Assembly: GCA_902728285.1 (NCBI GenBank) | Contig: CACVBU010000956.1 | Coordinates: 663,457-727,456, forward strand | Origin: Clytia hemisphaerica | Lineage: Eukaryota > Cnidaria > Hydrozoa > Leptothecata > Clytiidae | DNA length: 64,000 bases | Direction of reading: 5' to 3' | Shown here: piece by piece, positions 18,376-62,766 of the stretch | Position numbering within the stretch: the first letter of the stretch is position 1 | Layout of the letters: the number at the start of each line of letters is the position of its first letter | Notes under the pieces: generated by a model | Told to the model about the DNA's origin: nothing | What the model saw: only the letters and a program-made list of their open reading frames with translations | Databases searched by the model: none | Position numbers and translations under genes: made by a program

Positions 18376-21300
18376 TTGATAATAATGACCAAGAAATTTC
18401 ATTTCTCTTTTTTGATAAAGAAAATCAATGGGTCGCTAGGTGAAGATTGATAAAAATATATGCGATGATGGAAGAGAAAACATAAAAGGAACGGCGCCCG
18501 ATTTTCAAAACTGATATCTTGGCTTCTAATGGCTATATAAGATTTATTTTCATCAATCTAGACAGTTAAAATCCTTTTCTGAGAAAAAAAAAATCAGTAC
18601 TCAAATATCCTTGTTTAAAGCTCTTTTTTCTATAGCGCGTTCAAAAAGAGAGAAATGAAACTGGAACTACTACGTCATAAACGGCAAAAGAGGAACTTCT
18701 TTGATAAACAATTAAGAAAGAGTGGTTTACGTTATTGAGTAATATTATACACCATACATATATATTAAAAATACTGAAGATACAACTATGAAAAAAATGT
18801 ACAAATTTTAACAAAATCTAGACCTGCTTTTTCTGACAACTTCCTCCTTATCTGGTTTAGGTTCTGTAGCGATATTTTTTGGTGGCTTAGGCAGGTTTGG
18901 GAGAGGGTATTTCTCACGAGTTTCCCGTAGATAAAAAACCTCTTCGAGAATGTTGCTTATGTAGCTTTTGTCCTTCGCTTCTTTGATTGGTTTAGATACC
19001 CAACTTTGAGTGATACGAGTGAATGTGATCTTGTTACGTTTTTTGCCAGATTTGGTTTCAGCTTGCTGTAGACCAACAGATGAATTATGATCTAAAACTG
19101 CAAGTTGTGATCGAGCAACCATAACCTCGTATGAAAAGTGCAGACGTTTCGGACAATATTTATTATACAAGGAATGAAATACTTCTAAATTTCCTGTGTG
19201 GTTAAATTCGGTAAGATATGGAAAATCTTTTAAAAGTTTAGGATCAGCAACAATTTTCTTGAGTGCAACAAATGCTGACGAATCTTTTTTCAGCCATTTA
19301 CGTCCAAGGCGTTTCCCATGCTCACATGATTTATAATGCTTGTTTCCTTTGAACGTATGTTTATTGGTGATGTGCTCCAGAATACTGAGCCACTTTTCCT
19401 TTAAGATTTCAACATTTCCACCGCACGTTTTACAACACCACCAAAAATGGTTGATAATCGATTTTACCCACAACAACAACTCGGCATTTTTCTTAGCTTT
19501 AGCTGCTTTCATCAGCCGTTTTTTTATGCTCTTACAAAAATGCCAAATGTCGAATTGGTGAGGAATGTCTTTACATTCTGTTCTCATGAACTTTCTTACT
19601 TGTGTATGGCGGTCAGTAGTGAGGCTTAGAATTTTGATTCCGTACTCTTTGAGGCGTCTCAGTAAATCTTTAAGTCCAAAAAGCTCCATTCGATTGGAAT
19701 TTCCTGCTATACGGCAATGTGAAACGTTAAAGTCTACAATTTGACCATCAGCAGAGTTCATTATCGTGTAAGTACCGTACTTAGCGCTGTAGCCGGGAGA
19801 ATCGCATCTTCCATCTCCGTTAACGTGAATCGGACCGTTCTCAATAATCTCAGCGATGATTATTTCTCTGAATGTAGTGTAGACGTGATGAATAGCAGGT
19901 AGGAGATAAGCTTTCTGCATTTTGTAAAACGATCTCTCACTAATAAAGGCTACCTTGGCGATTCCCATCATCTCACTTATTCGACGATAAGTAGCACCTG
20001 AACAGAGAACTGATGCTGCCATAAGAATGTTCCCTTCAGCCATTCCTCTCACATCTGGTTGTGACTCCCATTTGGTTTCGTGATTATTCACACAAAGCTT
20101 TGTAACGATTATCTTAGTTCCTCGGGTGACACATTTCGTTATCGAGGCAATTTGGTGGCATAGAGAAACAAAATGAAAGAAGTTGTGCTAGACAAGACCA
20201 GTAAACGATGAACTTTGTGTCTTTGTTGGGCAAGCCGATCGACTCCTCACTCTCTACATCACTATCTGAATCACTGTCTGTGGGATCGGGTTCGAATGTC
20301 AGATCTGATGGGTCGTCCTCTTCTTCATCAGAGCTACTATCGATTACGTCCATCGGTTCCTTGTCATCACTACTTTCAATTTTAAACGTGACCATCACAT
20401 CAGGTGGAAATGTTATTTCTGTATTTGTCTCTTTTACCTTTGTGTCTGTCTTTTTCTTCTCAAATTTCACTTTCAATGGTCCTGGGAAATCAATGTTATG
20501 AGTTCTCTCTTTATCCTGTGAGTGATTGGGTTGGTCATGGTATTGTGTTCCCCGAGATGTCACTTTTTTGAAGGGTGTGTCCCAGCTGATATGGACTTGT
20601 CTACCATGACAGGTGCCTTTGAAACAGGTTCGATATTTTCGGTGCTGGTTGGCTCGACATTTCTCTCTTCGTAAACTTTTAAACTTTTTCAATAAATTGT
20701 CGTTTATTTGCGCGCTCAGACCTTGCTTTTGACATTGGCCTTGACTTAGGTTCTTTCGAGAAGCAAAAAATGGTTGGCACTGCATCTTCCTTCAATTTTC
20801 GTTTCGATGGTATTCCCATAAGTTCAGCCTGTAAAAGTAAAAAAGCAAATTAAGCCAAAGTTGTTGTTAACACCCCTGTTTCATATGTGCTCAAAATCTT
20901 ATAAGTCTAATCCAAACCATCCAAGTGACCTTATTGAGCCAGAATTTAGTGGATACTATCCCAAGTGAGTGAAAACACTACACCAAGGCACTGAGACAGG
21001 GGTGCTAAAGATATTTCAGCTGTGGGGGATTTCTCACAAATGCGGGCTAGCTACGGCTATTAAGAGAGAAGGATCCCATTGGGATAAGGAAAGAGAAAAA
21101 ACAAGCATTTACCTGGAGGTCTCGTTCGAAACAGGAGCTCTCAAAATGTTCTGAACAAAGCACAAGACTCTTTGGTAATTTTCCTTCCCTTCGTATATTT
21201 CGTTCCCATTGCTCTCGAAGGCTTGCATTCTTAGGAAGAGAGTGAAAACTGAGGGTTTTCTTTATTTGTTTGGTTGCGTCGTTTTTTGGTTCACTTTGAG

Positions 21301-29462: not shown

Positions 29463-30591
29463 CAGAGATGAGCAAACTCCAAACAGGAGTCAATGAAGGC
29501 AATCGTCTGGGATGATTGCACGTTTGAATCTGACTTTCTTGATTTCATCCATCATCTCGAAATGATTGATCCAGAGACTTCTGAGGTTATCTGGAAGGAC
29601 GTCATCCCAATCCATCTTTCTTTTGACCAGATCGTGGAGGTCCAACTTCATGGTTGCTACAATTGGAGTGATAAGTCCGGTGATGTCATATAACTCTGCA
29701 ACTTTGGCAACACATTGACGTCGAGTTAGATCCTTTGGGATTGTAGATTGCAGTGTTGGTTTTCGCCCTCGTGACTTCTTGGCAAAGTTGAGCTGTTGTA
29801 CATCGAGTGAGACTTCGTCTTCATGAGGGAACCATCTAAGTCCAGCCACTGATACTGTTGATAGTGATTCTTGTGGTCTTTGTCCAGAGAAAGTGAACCC
29901 TTTTAGACTGAAACCACCATGACTGATGACAACTTCAAGATCGTCTGCCAGTTTGTGGGCCAAGTTGACTGTTGGTGCTCCTGATAGGCAATCCTCGACA
30001 TACACATCGATGGAAACTATTTGATGGATTTGTGGATGCTCCTCTTTGAACAGTCGTGCAGTTTCCCTCAATCCTCTTTCTGCTTGATTGCCACTTGATT
30101 TGATACCATATATGAGGGTTTTGATCACTTTTTCTTCTGGTGGCTTTGTAGAGTCGAGCTGATCTTGCCAAAGGTAACGCTGAAGACCCCAGTGGCTTGG
30201 ATGTAGTTTGATTGAATTGTACATTTTTTGAACATCTGTGTGGAAAACCACGGAGTGACACCTCCACCGCACGAAGATGTCAACAAGACGGTTCATGTTA
30301 TCCCTTCCCTTGGCGAGAAGGTCATTGAGCGAAAATCCAGAGTTGGTGGTCATGGATGCATCGAATACCACCCGACATGGCATATTTTTGTTCGTAGTTT
30401 TCCAGAGAGTCTTGATGGTCTTGGAGTAAGAAACGTAGCTCTCTATCTTTATCTCTGTACTTCTTGCGGAGCGCCTGGATGTCAGTGATGCAACGTTTCA
30501 TGACATCAGTCGATTGTTTGATTAGAGGTGGAGCAAAGTCTTGAATGATGTCAAGGATTTCATCTTGATAGCCAATGAGCGAGAACAACAA
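29463..30591 (-). pseudogene. BEL/Pao retrotransposon reverse transcriptase fragment
   Basis: The ORF 29490-30383 encodes RVVFDASMTTNSGFSLNDLL, VFHTDVQKMYNSIKLHPSHW, IYGIKSSGNQAERGLRETA and SIDVYVEDCLSGA, followed by a connection region with VAELYDITGLITP: the RT of BEL/Pao LTR elements. The catalytic box normally reads YVDD; here it is YVED. The preceding frame (30322-30591) supplies an upstream piece, joined by a frameshift near 30383. Protease, RNase H, integrase and LTRs are not seen. It sits where the CR1 endonuclease should be. Confidence 0.8.
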
Positions 30592-30612: not shown

Positions 30613-31207
30613 ACCGTCCATTTGGATGACTTGGTCGGACGACGGTTGAAGTTGGTCAGAAGACGGTTGAAGTTGGTCGGACGACAGTTAAAGTTGGTCG
30701 GACGACAGTTGAAGTTGGTCGGACGACAGTTGAGTTGGTCGGGACTTTGAAGTTGGTCGGACGACGGTTGAAGTTGGTCGATGACGGTTGAGTTGGTCGG
30801 ACGACGGTTTTGAAGTTGGTCGACGACAATTGATTCGAATCGATCGACGACGACAAGTGAGTTGAGTCGAGTTGAACGACAGTGACAAGTGAGTGAGTCG
30901 GACGACAAGTGAGTTGAGTCGGACGACAAGTGAGTTGAGTCGAACGACAAGTGAGTTGAGTCGGACGACAAGTGAGTTGAGTCGGACGACGAAGTAGTTG
31001 AGTCAAGTGAGTAGGACGACAAGTGAGTTGAGTCGGACGACAAGTGAGTTTGAGTGAGACGACGATTGAGTCGACGAGTTGAGTCGGACGACAAGTGAGT
31101 TGAGTCGGACGACAAGTGAGTTGAGTCGGACGGCAAGTGAGTTGAGTGAGTTGACGGACAAGTGAGTTTGAGTCGGACGACAAGTGAGTTGAGTCGGACG
31201 ACATGAT
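30613..31207. repeat. 21-bp minisatellite, about 25 units
   Basis: Two related 21-bp units: GTTGGTCGGACGACAGTTGA with one more base (about 30632-30830) and GTCGGACGACAAGTGAGTTG with one more base (about 30895-31207). Both contain GTCGGACGACA. Because 21 is divisible by three, every frame on the minus strand stays open and gives 7-residue repeats such as SSDSTHL. Units of 19-25 bp break the phase in several places. The long frames across it should not be read as a gene. Confidence 0.85.
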
Positions 31208-31217
31208 AAAAAGTTCT

Positions 31218-31826
31218 TCATGTCATAGTAATTAAATTTATTAGGCTATCCTCACAGTCTTCATTTAGATTTATGTTAAGTACAGGAAGATGATTAAAGT
31301 CTTCAAAATTATTATCAAATTTAATTGATTTGGTTAGTTTGTTAGCAGTTTTAAATTCTTCAAAGGGAAAGTCAAGGGATTGAAATGGAAAATTAAGACA
31401 GTCGTTACAAGACCAGATTTTATGGTTTAATTCAAGATTTTTAGAATTAGTGCCAAGACACTTGAGGTGAATGGAGTGATTACCCAGTTTACAATGAATG
31501 TGTTTATCAAGACCAATGGTATTATTGCATTCCTTACACACGTTGGAATTAAGTTTAGTAATGTTAGAGTTAAACGTCTCGTGAGTATTTAGGTTATGAT
31601 TGGTGATGTTTGAGAAAGGAAGTGTATTTGAAATGCATTTTTGACAAAAGTATGGTAGTGGTGAATTAGCTAATTGGTTATAATGCCTTGTGGTAACCTT
31701 GATGCATTTGATATGAAGCCAGGTGTTACAGATCTCACAGAAAACCCCACTGTTATTGACGTTCAGCGAGCAAACATAGCATACAGAGGATTCAAAAAGA
31801 GCTTTGTAATCGTTAGCGGCCATCAT
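31218..31826 (-). CDS. N-terminal PHD-finger part of CR1 ORF2
   Basis: Starts MMAANDYKALFESSVCYVC and carries two zinc fingers: CYVC...CEICNTWLHIKC...CQKC and CKEC...CKLGNHSIHLKC...WSCNDC. The same pair occurs at the start of ORF2 in the intact CR1 at 48252. In LINEs such PHD-like fingers are thought to help target or bind chromatin. The ORF stops at 31218, just before the minisatellite, so the endonuclease is lost. Confidence 0.7.
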   Translation of the reverse strand: MMAANDYKALFESSVCYVCSLNVNNSGVFCEICNTWLHIKCIKVTTRHYNQLANSPLPYFCQKCISNTLPFSNITNHNLNTHETFNSNITKLNSNVCKECNNTIGLDKHIHCKLGNHSIHLKCLGTNSKNLELNHKIWSCNDCLNFPFQSLDFPFEEFKTANKLTKSIKFDNNFEDFNHLPVLNINLNEDCEDSLINLITMT

Positions 31827-31903
31827 AAAGCATGCGAAAAAGTATTAATAACAGAATAACAAAGAAAATAATAGCAATAGAAAAAAAGTCTGAAAAGAAC
31901 GTC

Positions 31904-37441: not shown

Positions 37442-39028
37442 TTAAAAAAAGTCTTGGACATGGATCCAAAGATTAAATTGTTCTCTCATAGCCATACAAA
37501 TGCTAATAGTCTCAGCAATGTCTCTCGACAAACAAGAGTCTTTTGAAACGTAGCGATTGAATGTCCTTAAAAGCAAACCAAAACTAAATTTATCTGACAC
37601 TGTAGAAGGTGGTTGTAAGCCTTTTCGCACCACCTCCGGTAAATGGTTCCATTCATTCATGTTCTTCTGTTTGAAAGTCAATTCTTTGACTGATACGATT
37701 CGACAAGCCCAGGAAAAATTTGTTATTATTGGAATCGCGTTATAGTTTACATGGACAGTTGACGTGTTTATGAGGTTGTGAATGACACCTTCTTGATGTA
37801 TGTGGGTCAAACCATCTGCGAGTCCAACAATAAAACTACGAACGAAGTTTGAAGTTAGGGACGACTTTTTTTCAAAAACGACGACAAGGGTACATTTGAG
37901 CTGAACCGAAACACAGAATGAAAAAATGCATCATCCGTGCATGTTATCCCCAAAGGGCTTATAATATTTTTATGTTTGTCAATTGTTCGCAGCAATTTCA
38001 GTTCATGGCTCAAAATAACGAGCGACTGTTCTTTGGAAACCTTTTTTTTCAAGTTCTTTAAATTGATCATCTCCCCATCTTTTATTGACAATTTAAAGTA
38101 TTCAAACTCACCATCGCTATAAACAAACAACTTATCTTTCAAATTTTCAACTTCAACGAAGTCAATATCAGTATCAAGCAAGACTTCATCACAATAGCCT
38201 ATATGGTCTGAGAACAATGCCGAATCACTAATACGGATGGTTCGTTGTTTCAGAGATTTTTCCAGCTTTAATCTACCTAAGTCAAAGCTTCGAGTTGTAA
38301 GGTAGTGGTTTTTGACAAGTAGTTTCGCATTATCTATTCTGAGTTCTTCCTTTTCCTTATCCACTTTAACAGCATGACGAGAATCATAAGCGACCCCTTT
38401 TTGCCTTAATGAACCCCATCTTGCTGCAACTGAATTATCCTGTTTGTCAAGGTTTTCCTGAAAACAAAACAAAAAAATAAATAAAGTTACATAAAAGTAC
38501 ACAAAAATTCACCGTATACACACAACGTAAGAGTATTACAAACCAATTTATTAGTCTACAGTCCTTAAAAAGTGGAAAATGGTAAACAAAAAGCCCCCAT
38601 AAATTATTTCATATGGGATGTATTTAATGTGTGTTCATAAACTTGAGAGCCATTCACAAAGCCGTTAAATTTGATGTTTTGGTGTTTCTCTTTTTATGTT
38701 CTTTATTCTTTTTATTCTCTTTATATGTTCACATAAATTATATAATATAATTTATGAGGATTTTTTAGGGGGTCAGTACAAAAATCCAAGACATAAATGA
38801 GTACTAAAAGGTAATACCCCAACCTGTTTTGAAATTGTATCTCTAATTTATGTCATACAAGATAATTAATCTTATTTAAATTAAAAATCCAGTAAAGAAG
38901 TTAATTCTTTGCTAAAAAACACAAACCTTTCTATTATTTTTGAAGGAATACTTTTCAATGATTTCCAAGGATTTGATTTCAACAACTTCAGCTTCGCTTT
39001 TTTCTTTCAGCAATTCAACTATCTGTTT
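37442..39028 (-). CDS. Pseudokinase-like gene, last two exons, one apparent frameshift
   Basis: Exons 39028-38927 (KQIVELLKEKSEAEVVEIKS...) and 38457-37442 join in phase 0 by GT-AG. The second exon carries an N-lobe (HELKLLRTIDKHKNIISPLG), then the catalytic-loop position HQEGVIHNLINTSTVHVN in place of HRDLxxxN, TNFS in place of DFG, NHLPEVV for APE and SDKFSFGLLL, a well-kept SDVYSFGxLL. The key catalytic Asp residues are missing, so it should be a pseudokinase. The two halves are in different frames; adding one A to the 7-A run (37866-37872, shown as T on plus) restores one frame. Upstream exons are not found; a CACTA fragment lies immediately upstream. Confidence 0.65.
38458..38926 (-). 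other. Intron of the pseudokinase gene
   Basis: AT-rich intron of 469 bp with donor GTTTGT at the upstream side and acceptor TTTTGTTTTCAG. Nothing else noted. Confidence 0.5.
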
Positions 39029-47034: not shown

Positions 47035-47157
47035 TTAACTGAACAATTTTTTTACTCTTTCTATACTGTTGCCAGACAGATAAAAAAATTCACTCCATTT
47101 AAGAATTAGTGAATAAGATTTAGTGAATAAGACATTAACAAAAAAAAGAAGATAAAA

Positions 47158-47212
47158 ACAACAACAACAACAACAACAACAGAAGATACAAAAAACAACA
47201 ACAACAACAACC
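47158..47212 (+). repeat. (CAA)n microsatellite in the LINE leader
   Basis: Runs of ACAACAACAACAACAAC separated by an AGAAGATACAAAAA interruption, just upstream of the ORF1 ATG at 47233. Confidence 0.85.
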
Positions 47213-47232
47213 ATATACAACATAATACAATA

Positions 47233-48249
47233 ATGGCTTGTGCAATGATCAACAAAAATGAAAATAATGAATTGGAAAACCTAGAGAAAGACGAGGAGGT
47301 GACATTTAAACAAAACGAAACACAAGAACCAAAAAAAGATGACACCGACAACGACGAAAAATTCTTTGACACAGCAGAGGAACCAAAAAAAGATGATGAT
47401 TACATTACACCGACTGCCCCGACACTCAGAGACATCTTCAACCAAAACAATACCATCCTGAAATCAAACCAAAAAATTCTGCAAAAACTTAGTGACCTTG
47501 AATCGAAAACAGATAAGTTAGAACAAAACTATCTAAAAACGAACCAACAGATCACTAGCATAATATCAAACATGGACACAATGAAGAAAAATGTAGATGG
47601 GGTAATAGAATCCCAAAAGCTGATCAACACTGAATTTGAAGACAACAAAAAAACTATAAAGAAACTTGAAAAAGACATTGCTACCTTAATCAAATCTGTT
47701 AATAACAACAAAGCTGATATCAAAAACAATGTAAAATCCCTGGGTGATGTAAAAACTATTGCAAACAAATCAAACGCTGGTAACAATGATCTAGAGCAGT
47801 ACGGAAGGAGAGTCATGGTAGACGTATGTGGTATCCCAAAGATGAAAAATGAAAATACGGATAAGATAGTGATCGATGTGGCAAAATTAATGAACATTGA
47901 ACTGACCCTCAATGATATTGAGATTAGTCACAGAACAAACCAAGAACCTAATGCTCCCATAATTGTGAAATTCCTGTCAAGAAGAACACGTAACCAATTT
48001 TTCTCAAATAGAAATAAATTGAAGGGTAAAACTGTAAAGGACATTAATTTCAAAGGTTGCGACAACAAAATCTATGTAAATGAAAGTCTAACAAGACAAA
48101 ATGGCAATGTATTCAAGGCTGCGCGAAACCAACTCCGGCCTAAAGGTTATAAATACATTTGGACAGTAAATGGTGTAACCTTGGTGAGAAAAAATGAACA
48201 GTCTGAAATAATATCTATCAAGTCAATCACAGATCTTAACAATCTATAA
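47233..48249 (+). CDS. CR1 LINE ORF1 protein
   Basis: 338 residues: an acidic N-terminus with repeated EEPKKDD, a long coiled coil (about residues 60-195, e.g. QKILQKLSDLESKTDKLEQN), then an RRM-like and C-terminal domain with LEQYGRRVMVDVCGIPKMKN, IEISHRTNQEPNAPIIVKFL and YVNESLTRQNGNVFKAARNQ. This is the usual plan of L1-like ORF1 proteins, which trimerise and bind LINE RNA. The start is the ATG after the (CAA)n leader. The same domains occur, frameshifted, in the minus-strand CR1 at 31.9-32.6 kb. Confidence 0.85.
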   Translation: MACAMINKNENNELENLEKDEEVTFKQNETQEPKKDDTDNDEKFFDTAEEPKKDDDYITPTAPTLRDIFNQNNTILKSNQKILQKLSDLESKTDKLEQNYLKTNQQITSIISNMDTMKKNVDGVIESQKLINTEFEDNKKTIKKLEKDIATLIKSVNNNKADIKNNVKSLGDVKTIANKSNAGNNDLEQYGRRVMVDVCGIPKMKNENTDKIVIDVAKLMNIELTLNDIEISHRTNQEPNAPIIVKFLSRRTRNQFFSNRNKLKGKTVKDINFKGCDNKIYVNESLTRQNGNVFKAARNQLRPKGYKYIWTVNGVTLVRKNEQSEIISIKSITDLNNL

Positions 48250-48251
48250 CT

Positions 48252-50189
48252 ATGAACATCCCTACCATTGAATCAATTATTTGCCATAAGTGCAAAAAAC
48301 TCTGTCTTGATGACTGTATACTGTGCGAACTCTGTAATACCTGGGTTCACGCCAAATGTTTTAAAATCACAAAACGTCAACTATCTCAACTATCTAACAA
48401 TAATCATCCCTACTTTTGCCCTGTTTGCACCTCTGACTTGATCCCCTTTAGCCACGTTACTAATGTACATATCGATCAATTCAACTCATCACTCAATCTA
48501 AACACCCTAATCTATAATTGTAGCTGTTGTAATAAAGCCATTGCACACAATGATAAAATTGAGTGTAAAATGGGTAAACACTTTCTCCATAAAAAATGTA
48601 TTAAATCTACCCCTTTAAATGACATTAACCGTTCCATCTGGTCATGTAACGACTGCTTAAGATTTCCATTCAACTGTATAAATGACAACCATCTCTTACC
48701 AGAAATTCTAAGCAATGAAACTGAACTTAACCTTAAACGTATAGATAAAATAAAACTTAATAAAAAGATCTCTGAACTAAAAATGTCCTTACCTAAAATC
48801 ACTGTGTCTGATCCTTCAAGTCATGAGAATGAAATTGAAATTAACTTTAACTACTATGAAATTAATCAATTCATTAAAATGTCTTCATTGCTAAATCCAA
48901 ATGATAACTTATCTTTTTTCCACACCAACATCCGTTCCTATAACAAAAATTTTGATGAGCTTAACACACTCCTATCTAAAATTCCTCACAAGTTTGATTT
49001 CATAGGTCTGACTGAAACCTGGGATTCACCTACAAGTCCTGTAAATGCACAAGACTTACCTGGCTACCATCCAATTGAAGTAACTGTAGGTTCATCACAA
49101 AACGGAGGAGTCATTGCATACATCAAAGATGACATCACCTTCCACAGAAGAAAAGACCTTGAAAAGGAGCTTAAATCAGGTGAGAATTTTGAATGTGAAT
49201 CAATCTTTATTGAAATAAGAACTGAGTCAACGCTGAACAACTATGTTATTGGGGTCATTTACAGACACCCAAGTAATAAAATCAAATTTTTCAATGAAAG
49301 AATGGAAAATCTTCTCAAAAAACTTAACAAAGAAAATAAACAGATGATTTTAATGGGTGACTTTAACATTGATCTGCTCAAAACAAACAAACACAGGGAA
49401 ACTAGCAACTTTGTCGATCTCATGTTTCAAAATTATTTGTTTCCTTACATCACCCATCCAACAAGATTCAACAAAGAACTTAATTCCTCTCTTATTGATA
49501 ACATATACCACAATAATGTATCAGGTGAATTTGTTAGTGGTAATTTCATCTCTCATGTGTCTGACCACTTACCAAATTTTCTTATACTACCTTCGGTAAG
49601 ATCAAAACCAAAAATCAAAAAAATATTTAAACGAAACTTTGACAACTTTAACATTGCTGAATTTCGTCAAGATCTCATTGGAACCAACATTGAAAACAAA
49701 CTTAAAAAGATGAATAATCCATCCAAAATGTATGATCTCTTCCACAACACCCTATCGATTCTTTTTGACATGCATTGCCCACTCAAACCTCTGTCACAAA
49801 AGCAAAAAAAACGCTTAAACAAACCATGGATGACAGATTCTATCCTCAAAAAAAGCTCCAAAAAAGAAGAACTTTATGGCATATACTTGCAGACTGGAGA
49901 CCGTGAAATCTTTAAAGATTACCAATTAATCAGAAACACTATCAATAAAGAAATCCGGAGGAGTAAATTTCACTATCAAAAACAAAGATTCGAAAAATTC
50001 AAAAACAATACCAAAAAAATATGGAAAGAGGTCAATCATCTCCTCTCAAGAAACACTTCTAGTCCTATCCCACAATTTATGACTCGTGGTAAAAAACATA
50101 TTTCATCAGAGCATGAAATAGCACAAAATTTCAATCAGCATTTTTCACAAGTAGCACCAAATCTTCTCAAAAAAAATGCTACCTGGTGA
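48252..50189 (+). CDS. CR1 ORF2 part 1: PHD fingers and AP endonuclease
   Basis: 645 residues. Two zinc fingers come first (CHKCKKLCLDDCILCELCNT, WVHAKC, FCPVC; then CSCCNKA, CKMGKHFLHKKC, WSCNDC). An APE-type endonuclease follows: FFHTNIRSYNKNFDELN, LTETWDSPTS, GGVIAYIKDD, VIGVIYRHPS, MGDFNIDLL and SHVSDHLPNFLIL, with catalytic Asn, Glu, Asp and His positions in place. It nicks target DNA to prime reverse transcription. It ends NLLKKNATW after an 8-A run. Removing one A would join it to the RT frame, so part 1 and part 2 are one polyprotein broken by a single base. Confidence 0.87.
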   Translation: MNIPTIESIICHKCKKLCLDDCILCELCNTWVHAKCFKITKRQLSQLSNNNHPYFCPVCTSDLIPFSHVTNVHIDQFNSSLNLNTLIYNCSCCNKAIAHNDKIECKMGKHFLHKKCIKSTPLNDINRSIWSCNDCLRFPFNCINDNHLLPEILSNETELNLKRIDKIKLNKKISELKMSLPKITVSDPSSHENEIEINFNYYEINQFIKMSSLLNPNDNLSFFHTNIRSYNKNFDELNTLLSKIPHKFDFIGLTETWDSPTSPVNAQDLPGYHPIEVTVGSSQNGGVIAYIKDDITFHRRKDLEKELKSGENFECESIFIEIRTESTLNNYVIGVIYRHPSNKIKFFNERMENLLKKLNKENKQMILMGDFNIDLLKTNKHRETSNFVDLMFQNYLFPYITHPTRFNKELNSSLIDNIYHNNVSGEFVSGNFISHVSDHLPNFLILPSVRSKPKIKKIFKRNFDNFNIAEFRQDLIGTNIENKLKKMNNPSKMYDLFHNTLSILFDMHCPLKPLSQKQKKRLNKPWMTDSILKKSSKKEELYGIYLQTGDREIFKDYQLIRNTINKEIRRSKFHYQKQRFEKFKNNTKKIWKEVNHLLSRNTSSPIPQFMTRGKKHISSEHEIAQNFNQHFSQVAPNLLKKNATW

Positions 50190-51747
50190 CGACCCCTTAA
50201 CAGCTCTAAAAAATCAAAATCAAAGCATGTTCTTTGAACCAGTTAAAACATACGAAATCAGTGAACACATTAACGATTTAGATTTTAAAAAAGCCATAGA
50301 TCTCTATAGGTTTCCAATCAATGTAATCAAAAATATTGGTGATCTCATTTGTTCACCTCTCACAATCATTATCAATAAATCTATATCACAGGGCATCTTT
50401 CCTGAAAAACTCAAAATTGCTAGGGTAACCCCTGTTTTTAAAAATAACGGAGACAAGCATGACATCATCAACTACAGACCCATCTCTGTATTACCCATTT
50501 TTGACAAAATATTTGAAAAAACCGTAAATCACAGACTCAAAAACTACCTGATTGATAAAAAAATATTATCTGAGAACCAATTTGGTTTTCAGATAGGTAA
50601 ATCTACTTCAGATGCTGTTCTGAAGTTGACAGATGAAATTCATTTAGAACTTAAGAAAAATAAAACATGCTGTACAATATTATTAGACCTAGCTAAAGCA
50701 TTTGACACAGTCGACCACAGGATCCTGGTAAGAAAACTCAATGCAATTGGAATTAGAGGGCCATTAAACAAATGGTTTGAAAGCTATCTCACTAACAGAA
50801 GGCAGGTTGTTAGTATTGGTAATGAAGCTTCTGATGAATTAGAAATGAAATTCGGGGTACCCCAGGGATCAGTGCTTGGACCCACCCTTTTCCTAATCTA
50901 CATTAACGATTTACCACTATCCTCTTCAAAATTTTCCTTTACACTTTTTGCAGACGACACCTCCCTTCTTCTTAGCCACGAAGACCCTGTTATCCTTGAG
51001 CAACTAGTAAACCAAGAGTTAAAGCTTGTCCAAACCTGGCTGACCAACAACAAGCTATCCCTAAATATTAAAAAATCTTGTTTTATTATTTTTTCAGGTA
51101 AAAAACAGGTTGGAAAATTCACTATCTCAATATCAAACAATCAGGTAATGAGAACTAGCTTTGCAAAGTATTTAGGTGTATTTATCGATGAAAAATTGGA
51201 CTGGAAAGCTCACATCGATCATGTCAAAACTAAGATCAAACAAGGCTCAGGCCTCATACGTAAGTTGAGTCATTTAGTTTCACCGTCTTATATTACTTCA
51301 TTATATTATTCATTTATTAATTCACATTTACAATATTGCATAACCTCCTGGGGCTCACCGAGCACCAAGGGAATAGGTAAGTTAAATTGTGAAATAAGTA
51401 ATATAACAAATAAAATCAATAAAATTTTTAATAAATCAAATCTTGGGACATTCAATACATTAAAAGTTAACTCCCTATACAAATTAGAGTGTGGTAAGCT
51501 CATATTTAAACATATAAACAAATCAGCAGCTGACTATTTAAACACAATTTTTAGTAAGCCATCTCATGGGTTTGGTACCCGTCAGCCTACTAATGACTCT
51601 TTAACGACTTTGGTATTTGGTGACTCGCCATCTCCCATACGATTTTACGGTCCACATCTCTGGAACCAACAATGTCTTAATCTCAAATCCACCAGCTTTT
51701 CTGTGTTTGCTCGAAAACTCAAATCAAAATTACTCAATGATAACTAA
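50176..51747 (+). CDS. CR1 ORF2 part 2: reverse transcriptase
   Basis: 523 residues carrying RT motifs: RVTPVFKNNGDKHDIINYRP, FGFQIGKSTSDAVLKL, CCTILLDLAKAFDTVDH (motif A), GVPQGSVLGPTLFLIYINDL, TLFADDTSLLL (motif C with FADD) and KYLGVFIDEKLDWKAHI. The end has the SPIRFYGPHLWNQ motif usual for CR1. The start given is where the frame opens after the A-run frameshift; in the living element it would be continuous with 48252-50189. All catalytic residues appear intact. Confidence 0.87.
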   Translation: MLPGDDPLTALKNQNQSMFFEPVKTYEISEHINDLDFKKAIDLYRFPINVIKNIGDLICSPLTIIINKSISQGIFPEKLKIARVTPVFKNNGDKHDIINYRPISVLPIFDKIFEKTVNHRLKNYLIDKKILSENQFGFQIGKSTSDAVLKLTDEIHLELKKNKTCCTILLDLAKAFDTVDHRILVRKLNAIGIRGPLNKWFESYLTNRRQVVSIGNEASDELEMKFGVPQGSVLGPTLFLIYINDLPLSSSKFSFTLFADDTSLLLSHEDPVILEQLVNQELKLVQTWLTNNKLSLNIKKSCFIIFSGKKQVGKFTISISNNQVMRTSFAKYLGVFIDEKLDWKAHIDHVKTKIKQGSGLIRKLSHLVSPSYITSLYYSFINSHLQYCITSWGSPSTKGIGKLNCEISNITNKINKIFNKSNLGTFNTLKVNSLYKLECGKLIFKHINKSAADYLNTIFSKPSHGFGTRQPTNDSLTTLVFGDSPSPIRFYGPHLWNQQCLNLKSTSFSVFARKLKSKLLNDN

Positions 51748-54619: not shown

Positions 54620-54960
54620 CGTATGGGCTATTCCGGGTTAAGCCAAGTTGACCAAAAGCCCCCTATAAAGGTTGGAGGTGACACAATCAACTTCGTATGG
54701 GCTATTCCAGGTTAATCCAAGTTGACCAAAAGCCCCTTATAAAGGATGGAGGTTACACAGTCAACTTCGTATGTGCTATTCCGGGTTGAACCAAGTTGAC
54801 CTACCCCTTATAAATGATTGAGGTGACACAGTCAACTTCGTATGGGCTATTCCAGGTTGAACCAAGTTTACGTACCCCTTATAAAGGATGAAGGTTACAC
54901 AGTCAACTTCGTATGGGCTATTCCAGGTTGAACCAAGTTGACCAAAAGCAACTAAAACTA
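54620..54960. repeat. Minisatellite, five copies of 71-74 bp
   Basis: Copies start with CGTATGGGCTATTCC at 54620, 54694, 54768, 54839 and 54910 (periods 74, 74, 71, 71; the third reads GTATGTGC). Each contains AACCAAGTTGACC and CCCCTTATAAAGG-TG. CCAAGTTGACC also occurs at 54468, inside the end of the Penelope-like element, so the array may have grown from its 3' end. Confidence 0.85.
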
Positions 54961-57030: not shown

Positions 57031-59225
57031 TTAAAGTACAATGCAATACGAATCAATACCGATCTCGTGATTTTGTTTACAATCATTGCAAATCCAAATC
57101 TCGTCACTTCCAATGTTGTTGGCAGTTTTCAATTTGGAGCATTTGAAATGATACCATTGGTGGCATCTATCACAACTGATCCCGTGAGCGACTTTTCTAC
57201 GGCAATCTCCACAGGTCCAGTTCTTTTGTTTTTGCACATCGATTGATAATTTTCTATTATTTTATACACTGCGTCTGAAACAAGGTCTTTTACGATTTCT
57301 AAGTCCACAGAAGGATCACGGAAAGAATCTTTGTGTTTCATTTTCGTGAAAGGAATAATGGCACTTGTTTCAATATCACAACACTGGTTCATTCTGTCTA
57401 GCGCAAGTTCGGTTCCTATTAGCCATGAAAAAGTTTGTTTTCCTCTTGTTGACAAGTTTTTAAACGGTACTAATAAAAAAAGAAGGAACACGAAAGTCTG
57501 AAATAACGTAGTCGTTTTAATTATTTTTTGTTGCAAAATATTGACATTAGAGGCTATGACTTGTTGAGATTTACATTGAATTGTAGATTCCCATATGCCT
57601 GACTCTACTGATATGCAATTGATTGGAGATGAATCTTCATTTTGCCATCTAGCTTCGTGATTTCATCAGTCGCACGACTTAAATTGTATAAATTTTTTAA
57701 AAGTGTTCGAGTTAGGATAATCGTGCAAATGATAACCAAGTTACAATTCAAACGAAAAAACTTTATTTACCCAGAGGAATATCATACGCTGATTCTTGTA
57801 CTTCTATTTCTTCTTCGTCTTTCTCCGAATCTTCGTATCCTGAAGTTGGTATGAAAAATTAAGAATGTCTAAATTTATGAAATTTGAATTTAATAATAGC
57901 ATTACATAGTAACATCAAACTGAAAAAAATTGGTAATCAAAAGATAATAATTATTATAAAAACAGAGCTTCCTTTTACCTAATATTGATGCTGTCTCTGT
58001 AGTGTCACTTGTCTCTGAAGCTGAATCTGAAGAAACTGAATTTGTATCTAGAAATTTAAAACATTAGTCATATCATATGTAATGTCAAACTAGAATTTTC
58101 ATAATTCAGGCCTGCTGACACATAATGGTTCTGTTTTGTTGGTTATAATTGTCGTAACCGCTACAATTAGCCAATAAAACGGCTTCTTTTGTTTTGGAAC
58201 GGAACGGAACATGGCCTTACGATGACTTACCTGGCTTGAAACTATTTGTCCAGTATCGAAATTAAAACCTTATACACTAAAACTTACAATGTCCTTCTCG
58301 AATCCATTGCAGGCTTCGCTCCCATTCAACATCGTCCAATACATGCGGTTCACTAGACTTTCTCTCAGGTGGGAAATTACTCGAACTTTCATCTAAATAG
58401 TCATGGAAAATATTAAATTAGTTACATCATTTAGAAAATAATCCCGAAATGAAGGATAAGATTTAGAAGGTTTCGTTCAGAAAAGTACATACCTTGTGAT
58501 TTTAAAGCTTGGGAAGGCTGTGTTACTTGGGGATGTTTTTTATTTGAACTCGAACTTTGATCTAAATAGTCATGAAAAATATTCAATTAGTTACATTTAG
58601 AAAATAATCACGAAATGAAGGATAGGATTTAGAAGTTTTCGTTCAGAAATGTACATACCTTGTGATTTTAAAGCTTGGGAAGGCTGTGTTGCTTGGGGAT
58701 GTTTTTTATTTGAAATCCAACTTTGATCTAAATAGTCATGAAAAATATTCAATTAGTTACATTTAAAAAATAATCACGAAATGAAGGATAAGATTTAGAA
58801 GTTTTCGTTCAGAAATGTACATACCTTGTGATTTTAAAGCTTGGGAAGGCTGTGTTGCTTTAGGGATGTTTTTTATTTGAACTCGAACTTGATCTAAATA
58901 GTCATGAAAAACATTCAATTAGTTACATTTAAAAAATAATCACGAAATGAAGGATAAGATTTAGAAGTTTTCGTTCAGAAATGTACATACCTTGTGATTT
59001 TAAAGCTTGGGAAGGCTGTGTTGCTTTAGGGATGTTTTTTATTTGAACTCGAACTTGATCTAAATAGTCATGAAAAACATTCAATTAGTTACATTTAGAA
59101 AATAATCACGAAATGAAGGATAAGATTTAGAAGTTTTCGTTCAGAAATGTACGTACCTTGTGATTTTAAAGCTTGAGAAGGCTGTGTTGCTAGGGGATGT
59201 TTTTTATTTTAACTCGAACTTTGAT
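57031..59225 (-). CDS. PHD-finger gene with duplicated 69-nt exons
   Basis: Minus strand, 3' part: five tandem exons (59225-59157, 59059-58991, 58893-58825, 58727-58659, 58561-58493), then 58392-58288, 58047-57979, 57839-57771 and terminal exon 57469-57031. Every exon starts with 2 nt and ends with 1 nt of a split codon, so any combination keeps frame. The array exons encode Ser/Gln/Lys-rich peptides (e.g. QSSSSNKKHPQVTQPSQALK). The next ones are ESSSNFPPERKSSEP..., TNSVSSDSASETSDTTE and YEDSEKDEEEIEVQE. The last exon carries a C4HC3 PHD finger: WTCGDC, SCDRCHQWYHFKC, WICNDCKQ, which usually reads histone tails. Within it a 5-A run (57229-57233, T on plus) must gain one A to keep frame. The 5' end is not found. 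Confidence 0.62.
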
Positions 59226-59237
59226 CTAAATAGTCAT
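58393..59237 (-). repeat. Tandem array of five exon-bearing 166-bp units
   Basis: Exact 166-bp period: exons at 58493, 58659, 58825, 58991 and 59157 (low ends), each 69 nt with intron sequence conserved too. Units 3 and 4 are identical in the exon; unit 5 has an in-frame TAA. The flanking exon 58288-58392 shares the same start (ESSSN-like), indicating it seeded the array. Confidence 0.88.
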
Positions 59238-59605
59238 CTATATATTAATAGCGATGCTTTGTGTGTCTGTGTGTCACCACTTTCGTTTTCGCTTTGTTTG
59301 TGTTTTAAAACAAGCCGTATATATATAAAAGTTGCGAAGCGATCCAGAGCCTCCTCGATTCGCAAGTTGCAAGCAAAAAATTTAAGACATACAAACACTG
59401 TATATTCAATGGCATATGTGAAGTTTTACTTAATACATTCGCTGCAGTCTTGCCGAATATCCTATCAGTCGGAAAAATTTTATAGTCCCTCTCTATAAAA
59501 ATGACATCTGTAGATTCTCTCATTGATGAACAAGCCGTATATGTATAAAAGTTGCGAAGCGATCCGGAGCCACCTCGATTCGCAAGTTGCAAGCAAAACA
59601 TTTAG
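59238..59605 (+). mobile_element. Helitron-like 5' terminus and duplicated 78-bp block
   Basis: In array unit 5 the intron departs from the other units exactly after GTCA, continuing TCTATATATTAATAGCGATG. A TC start inserted between A and T, followed by TATTAATA and a TTTGTGTGTCTGTGTG tract, is the pattern of Helitron 5' ends. A 78-bp block (about 59309-59388) with CAAGCCGTATATATATAAAA and GTTGCGAAGCGATCC recurs at 59527-59602. No Rep/helicase ORF and no 3' CTRR hairpin could be fixed, so the right boundary is a guess. Confidence 0.45.
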
Positions 59606-60693: not shown

Positions 60694-61243
60694 CTTTAAA
60701 TGCGATAAACTTTTGTGGAGATTAAATTTTGCGGATTTCACGGATTTGGGTGTCATCCCCAAAATCCGTAAAATTAAATCCCATTGAAAATTTGAGTAGG
60801 CCTTATCAGCAAAATATTTCTAAACAAAACTCAAAAAAATGTTAAATAAATACTTTTTGAATGCTTACTGGCATCAAAGAAGTGCTAATAATACGCATTT
60901 CAACGACCAATGTGATTTGACAGTACAGGCAAAAAAGTTGTAAGAATATATTGTCACACAATAGTGCCATCCACGAAATTAAGTCCAGTTAGGAACATTT
61001 GGCGAGTTCCTGTACGCGGCCGCAATCAAAAAAATCATAATGTCACTCAATAAAAAATGGCGTTCGTGTCTTTTCGCACTTTTTTTAGCCTAGACGATAT
61101 AGCAAACATAGTAAGTATAAGCACACTGTGCTTTTAATTGGCTGACAATTTCTTTTGCGTCGGAAAAACTTTTTCAAACTTTCAGCGATGATTGATCAAA
61201 CTGTTACAATGAAAATTATCCAGCGCATTTTTTATCTTCTTAC

Positions 61244-61520: not shown

Positions 61521-62766
61521 AAGATAATTTGTTTTGGTCTCCAGCTTTGGGAAGTAGCATTGTTTTTGGTTCTTTTCGATGGAAAATGGTAAGAAACTTA
61601 AGTTTACAAGTGTCATTTACAGTGTGGCTCGAATCCTTCAGATCCTTGGTTAGAAAAAGCTATACCTGTTTCCTTTTTTCTTCCCAGATTCAACAAGCCA
61701 TCAACCAACAAAATTACCACTGACATCTGAAAATTCACACAGCCTTTCCACTAGACATTTCTAAATTATCTGCCATTATGAAGATGTTCCGAAATTAACC
61801 AATCCGGTTTACAATCGGAATTCCTCTGGGAGTTAGCGAGTCGGGAAATGTAAAGTTATGTAATAGGTAATACATAATTTTTCCGGGGGTTAAACTTATA
61901 AATAAAATTGAAATGGTTTGTTTTTTTCTTCATTATATATTTAAGTTTTCATTATCAAAATTCTAGAAATGCTAGTTTGTAGACCATATTAGAAAATGGT
62001 TATATATTTCGCAAAATAAACACTTACAAAAGCTATTACTTACTATCTTTACCCCCGCTTTTTAAACAACGTCTTCTGTGGGCGTGATATCAGGCGGAGA
62101 CAAAACGCCCTCATCGTAAGATTCTCGGGTCGTCTTATTGTTTGTTCCTTTTGTCGAGTCTGTCGGTCCTATTGTTCATGCTAAATCCATACACGATGAC
62201 GTCAATGTTTGGCGGCATACCTGAAAATAAAAAACAAAAAGATTATCATATTATTTTTGCATGAATTACGCTACCTTATACGTCATTATAAAATTATACA
62301 AAACGAAAGCCAGTCTAGGCCGCCCGCCTAGAGCGCGGGCCCTAATATTTTTTCTCTCGCGGTCTTCAGGGGAAAACGAAAGTGATCGATATTCTTCGAA
62401 GGAAGAATTTGCCAAACAAACCCCTAGACAAAAAGATGTATTTTGAAGTTGGGAATGGATCCTGCGAAGATGAAAAAATTTTGACTAGGCGTTTTTTTGG
62501 CAAAGCCAAAAACTCTAATTTTTTTCTTCCCTCAAGCTAAAAAGGTTACAGGTTTTGGGCAATCGAGGCAAAAATCAGCAAAAAGCTGGTATTTTCCGTA
62601 AATCTGAGAATCGCGATAAGATCCTCACTGATTTAGTTTTTGCTGGCTTATAGAATGGCAGGATCCTGGATGGCTTTCCTAACTGAAGTCCCCGCGAAAT
62701 GTTTCAATTTTGGGGATTGGCCCAACCGCGAAATTTAATTCCCACAAAAGTTTATCGCATTAAAGT

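Follow-up and report, generated by a model that had tools for sequence, protein, structure and literature searches.

As listed in Table 1, a tandem array and the exons next to it lie on the minus strand of the 64-kb stretch of DNA that was analyzed here (the window). Tandem Repeats Finder reported the array at 58379-59237 with a period of 166, 5.2 copies, 95% matches and a score of 1519. The five units run head-to-tail on the minus strand from 59237 to 58379, and every unit holds a possible 69-nt exon in phase 1-1 together with an intron with GT..AG ends, the introns being 97 nt long in four units and 100 nt in one. The borders of these exons are marked by two short motifs (slashes indicate the exon border). 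The exon-start motif GACTATTTAG/AT occurs at six sites of the minus strand, at 59225, 59059, 58893, 58727, 58561 and 58392, the last of which is the start of E6, and the exon-end motif CACAAG/GTA occurs at five sites, which gives the five 69-nt exons.

Table 1. Positions in the window of the array, its copies, the downstream exons and the PHD frame
Feature	Position	Strand	Remarks	Pfam
Whole array	58379..59237	-	Units of 166, 166, 166, 166 and 169 bp, plus 26 bp	
Copy 1, exon-like segment	59157..59225	-	69 nt; closed in all frames, in phase 1 by TAA	
Copy 2, exon	58991..59059	-	69 nt; phase 1 open; cancelling -1/+1 indels	
Copy 3, exon	58825..58893	-	69 nt; same sequence as the copy 2 exon	
Copy 4, exon	58659..58727	-	69 nt; phase 1 open	
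Copy 5, exon	58493..58561	-	69 nt; phase 1 open; its intron (100 nt) is the most diverged	
Partial sixth unit	58379..58404	-	26 bp; acceptor end and first 14 nt of E6	
E6	58288..58392	-	105 nt; phase 1-1	
E7	57979..58047	-	69 nt; phase 1-1; Ser/Thr-rich	
E8	57771..57839	-	69 nt; phase 1-1; acidic	
E9	57213..57469	-	As taken in the chain test; 3' border provisional	
Open frame with PHD finger	57034..57261	-	Followed by stop TAA at 57033-57031	PF00628

The array exons start 166 nt apart in four of four steps, and the step from copy 5 to E6 measures 169 nt because of a 3-nt insertion in intron 5. The five symmetric-phase exons of 69 nt described in an initial annotation of this DNA were therefore recovered at 58379-59237, but the exact 166-bp period claimed there holds for these four steps and not for the next one. 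Unit 4 is 93-96% identical to the other four units, a likeness that is not due to chance, and the partial sixth unit (58404-58379) matches copy 5 at 25 of 26 nt. When the window was searched with the DNA of unit 4, six rows were obtained at E values up to 0.05, all of them within the array. Exon and intron are thus repeated jointly, head-to-tail and nearly identically, as in a tandem exon-plus-intron repeat.

Downstream of the array, the borders of E6 to E9, where tested, are GT/AG and the joins are in phase 1. Joined together, with E9 taken to 57213, the four exons form a chain of 500 nt that is open in the linked frame, whereas the two remaining frames contain 11 and 13 stops. None of 3000 exon-wise dinucleotide shuffles of this chain was open, a figure that overstates the case because the frame was taken into account in the choice of exon borders. 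Nevertheless, E6-E9 are most plainly read as a coding chain, and its openness places the array within or next to a gene that is real or was so until recently. In line with the first annotation, exon-plus-intron units of symmetric phase are repeated, and they are located upstream of Ser-rich and acidic exons that belong to an open coding chain. E7 and E8 had been presented as the two exons following the array; their length of 69 nt, GT/AG borders and phase 1-1 were confirmed, but the 105-nt E6 intervenes after the array. An older kinship of E7 and E8 with the array was considered and rejected, as the search with unit 4 matched the array alone, and we infer that the common length of 69 nt is a coincidence. 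The joined translation of copy 5 and E6-E9 gave no Pfam match at E values up to 1.

A PHD finger is present beyond E9. The frame at 57261-57034 matches PF00628 with an E value of 2.2e-08 and 34.4 bits (cut-off 24), covering profile positions 14-47 of 47, and PHD finger protein 13 is the best of 33 solved relatives (E 5.7e-05). The PHD finger that had been proposed before is therefore real, but it is not in frame with the array-side exons: the E9 frame and the PHD frame are one nucleotide apart and no good intron connects them. Six GT..AG introns of at least 38 nt could splice E9 to the PHD frame, and these were rejected, all six having negative donor scores. An acceptor that would link E8 directly to the PHD frame was not found either. 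Such a frame gap without a good intron implies an assembly error, a broken gene or an unrecognised exon border. In searches of viral contigs, the PHD peptide gave eight pattern stretches, none of which was confirmed, and the array DNA gave no matches.

The one-base frame difference ahead of the PHD finger lies in an A-rich stretch and is of a kind that assemblies tend to produce, and the array has been read in one sequence only, so its copy number could also be a product of assembly. That the copy number, or even the entire repetition, is an artefact of this kind would fit the near identity of copies 2 and 3, which are the same at all but 1 of 170 alignment columns. However, units 1, 4 and 5 each have private differences, which requires no fewer than four distinct units, and we consider an artefact very unlikely.

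All five array exons are 69 nt long with phase 1-1, and four of them are open. Copy 1 has an in-frame TAA as codon 6 of the phase-1 frame and is closed in all three frames; consequently, the idea that any number of these exons can be included without breaking the frame had to be dropped. Its acceptor tract is the poorest as well, 10 of 20 nucleotides being pyrimidines, compared to 13 of 20 for copies 2-5. In copies 2 and 3, a 1-nt deletion is balanced by a 1-nt insertion, so the 23 residues that these copies encode are partly different from those of copies 1, 4 and 5. Copy 5 was subjected to 5000 dinucleotide shuffles, of which 43% were open in phase 1, and the openness of any single unit in this phase could be due to chance. 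The donor sites read AAG/GTATGT in four of the five copies and AAG/GTACGT in the remaining one, and they score 4.9-5.5 versus 0.4-1.3 for those of E6-E8 in a rough matrix.

In the joined translations, no in-frame Met was found in the array exons or in E6-E8, i.e. none before E9, so a coding transcript that reads the array exons needs an upstream exon; it would also have to skip copy 1. Scanning the minus strand from 64000 to 59241 for such an exon gave nothing convincing, the sole ATG exon with a phase-1 donor score of at least 4 being a weak 49-nt candidate at 61292-61244, and under stricter limits there were no internal exon candidates in the same interval. This failed scan is weak evidence of absence because of the rough donor matrix, but without a convincing upstream exon, the array may fall outside the transcript.

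In that case, the units would be a minisatellite in an intron or in the 5' flank, rather than exons, with the gene starting downstream or being a pseudogene. This alternative agrees with the three closed frames of copy 1, the lack of a convincing upstream exon in 64000-59241 and of a Met in the array exons and E6-E8, the PHD frame that is broken off from E9, the proportion of open shuffles expected for a single unit, and exon columns without constraint (see below). It does not account for the splice-site sequences, which are kept in five of five units, or for a phase that fits E6 in all five, nor for four open units and indels that cancel. Because the copies are not independent, the kept splice sites, phase, openness and cancelling indels count for little beyond once, and we regard this alternative as rather unlikely, though less so than an artefact.

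Next to copy-by-copy frames, the distribution of differences over exon and intron bears on function. Among the five copies, 9 of 70 exon columns and 12 of 100 intron columns are variable (Fisher P = 1.0). With copies 1-4 only, these numbers are 8 of 70 versus 4 of 100 (P = 0.07), the direction being against constraint. In copies 1 and 4, seven codons are changed compared to copy 5, six of which alter the residue or create a stop; copies 2 and 3, with their indels, were excluded from the comparison. Relative to the introns, the exon parts show no sign of constraint, and as a result the term "ready-made device" for variable protein segments was too strong. A functional linker of variable length, in which copies are spliced in varying number and the frame is under selection, would explain why five of five copies are 69 nt long in phase 1-1 with four of them open, and why the indels in copies 2 and 3 cancel. 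It is difficult to reconcile with a dead copy 1, with exon columns that are at least as variable as intron columns, with six of seven examined codon changes that are not silent, and with a PHD finger that is out of frame, and it seems improbable to us. The one hint that selection may once have kept the frame comes from the mutually cancelling indels of copies 2 and 3. Judged by their differences, the array copies look tolerated and neutral, rather than retained for function.

The single column at which copies 2 and 3 differ is located in the intron, with none in the exon, and such near identity appears as after a recent exchange. Intron differences among copies 1-4 amount to 1-3 columns, but to 9-10 columns when any of them is compared with copy 5; three of these 9-10 columns represent one insertion. 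Compared to copies 2 and 3, copy 1 differs at 6 exon and 2-3 intron columns, and copy 4 at 5 exon and 2-3 intron columns. Near-identical inner copies and a diverged edge would be the pattern expected of unequal crossing-over, which appears to be present only partly: the distance to copies 2 and 3 is much the same for the edge copy 1 as for the inner copy 4, within 1-2 columns. A cluster of mutually exclusive exons, as in Dscam, where the duplicates code for divergent versions of a single segment, was also considered; this was rejected since copies 2 and 3 have identical exons and the others differ at 3-6 exon columns.

The reading that we find somewhat probable is a young exon-plus-intron minisatellite with a unit of 166 bp that was recently amplified on the 5' side of a coding gene, and of which copies 2-5 could be spliced. 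Amplification of a short exon with its intron most likely would have occurred by unequal crossing-over or slippage. The original unit may have been flanked by 26-bp direct repeats that were able to mispair, leading to the first duplication. With their plausible splice sites and phase 1-1, copies 2-5 would each add 23 mostly polar residues, and these residues would precede the Ser-rich and acidic linker. Copy 1 would be a decayed edge copy that is either skipped or outside the coding transcript. If copies are indeed spliced, the number of units in the genome would determine how long one segment of a likely nuclear protein is. A bolder version is that of a PHD chromatin-reader gene whose disordered linker would grow in 23-residue steps with copy number, individuals differing in length, and in which the inclusion of copy 1, as an exon with a stop, would lower output; to this we attach very little probability. 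At present, the array mainly matters as a clean and young example of how exon arrays begin and decay, and its 166-bp unit is small enough to be tracked by ordinary PCR.

A literature search gave no description of this locus among the titles and abstracts listed, a result that carries little weight. Chains of short exons are known from other genes, and in the schistosome micro-exon genes the exons are of symmetric phase. Like the locus described here, these genes are chains of short exons, with long introns of up to 5 kbp, but the abstract on them does not mention near-identical tandem exons such as those of the array (PMC10526429). A closer example is exon 2 of SmPoMuc in Schistosoma mansoni, where a small exon is tandemly repeated in the genome along with its flanking introns, in the 5' portion of a gene whose exons average 60 bp, and where the repeat number varies between individuals (PMC2576457). 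The array likewise repeats a small exon with an intron on the 5' side of a gene. The SmPoMuc units are ~1 kb, with up to 20 per gene, and belong to a mucin multigene family with demonstrated transcripts (PMC2576457), whereas here there are five copies of 166 bp at one locus. In that study, gene conversion was the favored explanation, and a centre-to-edge gradient was not observed (PMC2576457).

The same source describes SOWgp of Coccidioides, a fungal outer-wall glycoprotein gene with nearly identical repeated exons and introns that evolve together, for which unequal crossing-over has been invoked and polymorphism in repeat number has been shown (PMC2576457). The array resembles SOWgp in its near-identical repeated exons and introns, but it is represented by one sequence and shows the centre-to-edge pattern only partly. 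In human segmental duplications, 80 tandem-repeat modifications have been reported, 53 of exons and 27 of introns, and 32 of the 40 modifications in coding sequence were in frame (PMC2812944). These internal tandem repeats, which include morpheus/NPIP, are minisatellites within exons or at exon-intron borders with an average unit of 30 bp, based on a comparison of paralogues and supported by RNA, and in most coding cases the frame is preserved and a low-complexity or repeat part becomes longer (PMC2812944). In contrast, the unit here comprises a complete exon and a complete intron, seen at the DNA level. The array is thus an arrangement that is already known from SmPoMuc exon 2 and SOWgp, and represents a small case with one dead copy. 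Of the examples found, the two most similar ones concern a mucin family and a cell-wall glycoprotein (PMC2576457), whereas the array, if its copies are spliced, would affect a likely nuclear protein.

Several other repeats and open frames were detected in the window. Just upstream of the array, two 76-bp direct repeats (59309-59384 and 59529-59604) are 95% identical and 220 bp apart from start to start, and are perhaps part of a mobile element. Further upstream, an inverted repeat at 60696-60734 and 62726-62764, with arms of 39 nt that are 90% complementary and 1991 nt between them, possibly represents the ends of a DNA transposon. A second minisatellite at 54620-54949 has 4.5 copies with a period of 71, which is not a multiple of three, and 87% matches. 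PHD fingers also occur elsewhere. The middle one of the three open reading frames in a LINE-like element on the plus strand (47131-51747) combines a PHD finger with an endonuclease domain, and the last one has, by eye, the look of a reverse transcriptase. A further open reading frame with a PHD finger in two stretches (PF00628, E 2e-10) is located on the minus strand at 31218-31844, adjoined by minisatellites of ~21 bp (30631-30833 and 30884-31203) that are open in two minus-strand frames. The minus strand also contains an open frame at 29490-30497 that matches the Pao retrotransposon peptidase (PF05380, E 9.1e-14), and at 18808-20187 a match to a Mutator-like transposase (PF20700, E 6.7e-06) that is just under the curated cut-off (25.7 versus 26.5 bits). 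On the plus strand, an open frame of 757 residues at 40447-42720 matches a reverse transcriptase (PF00078, E 2.1e-31). Finally, a partial protein kinase match on the minus strand at 37442-38508 (PF07714, 25.7 versus a cut-off of 23.1 bits, with PF00069 below its own cut-off) is possibly a host gene.
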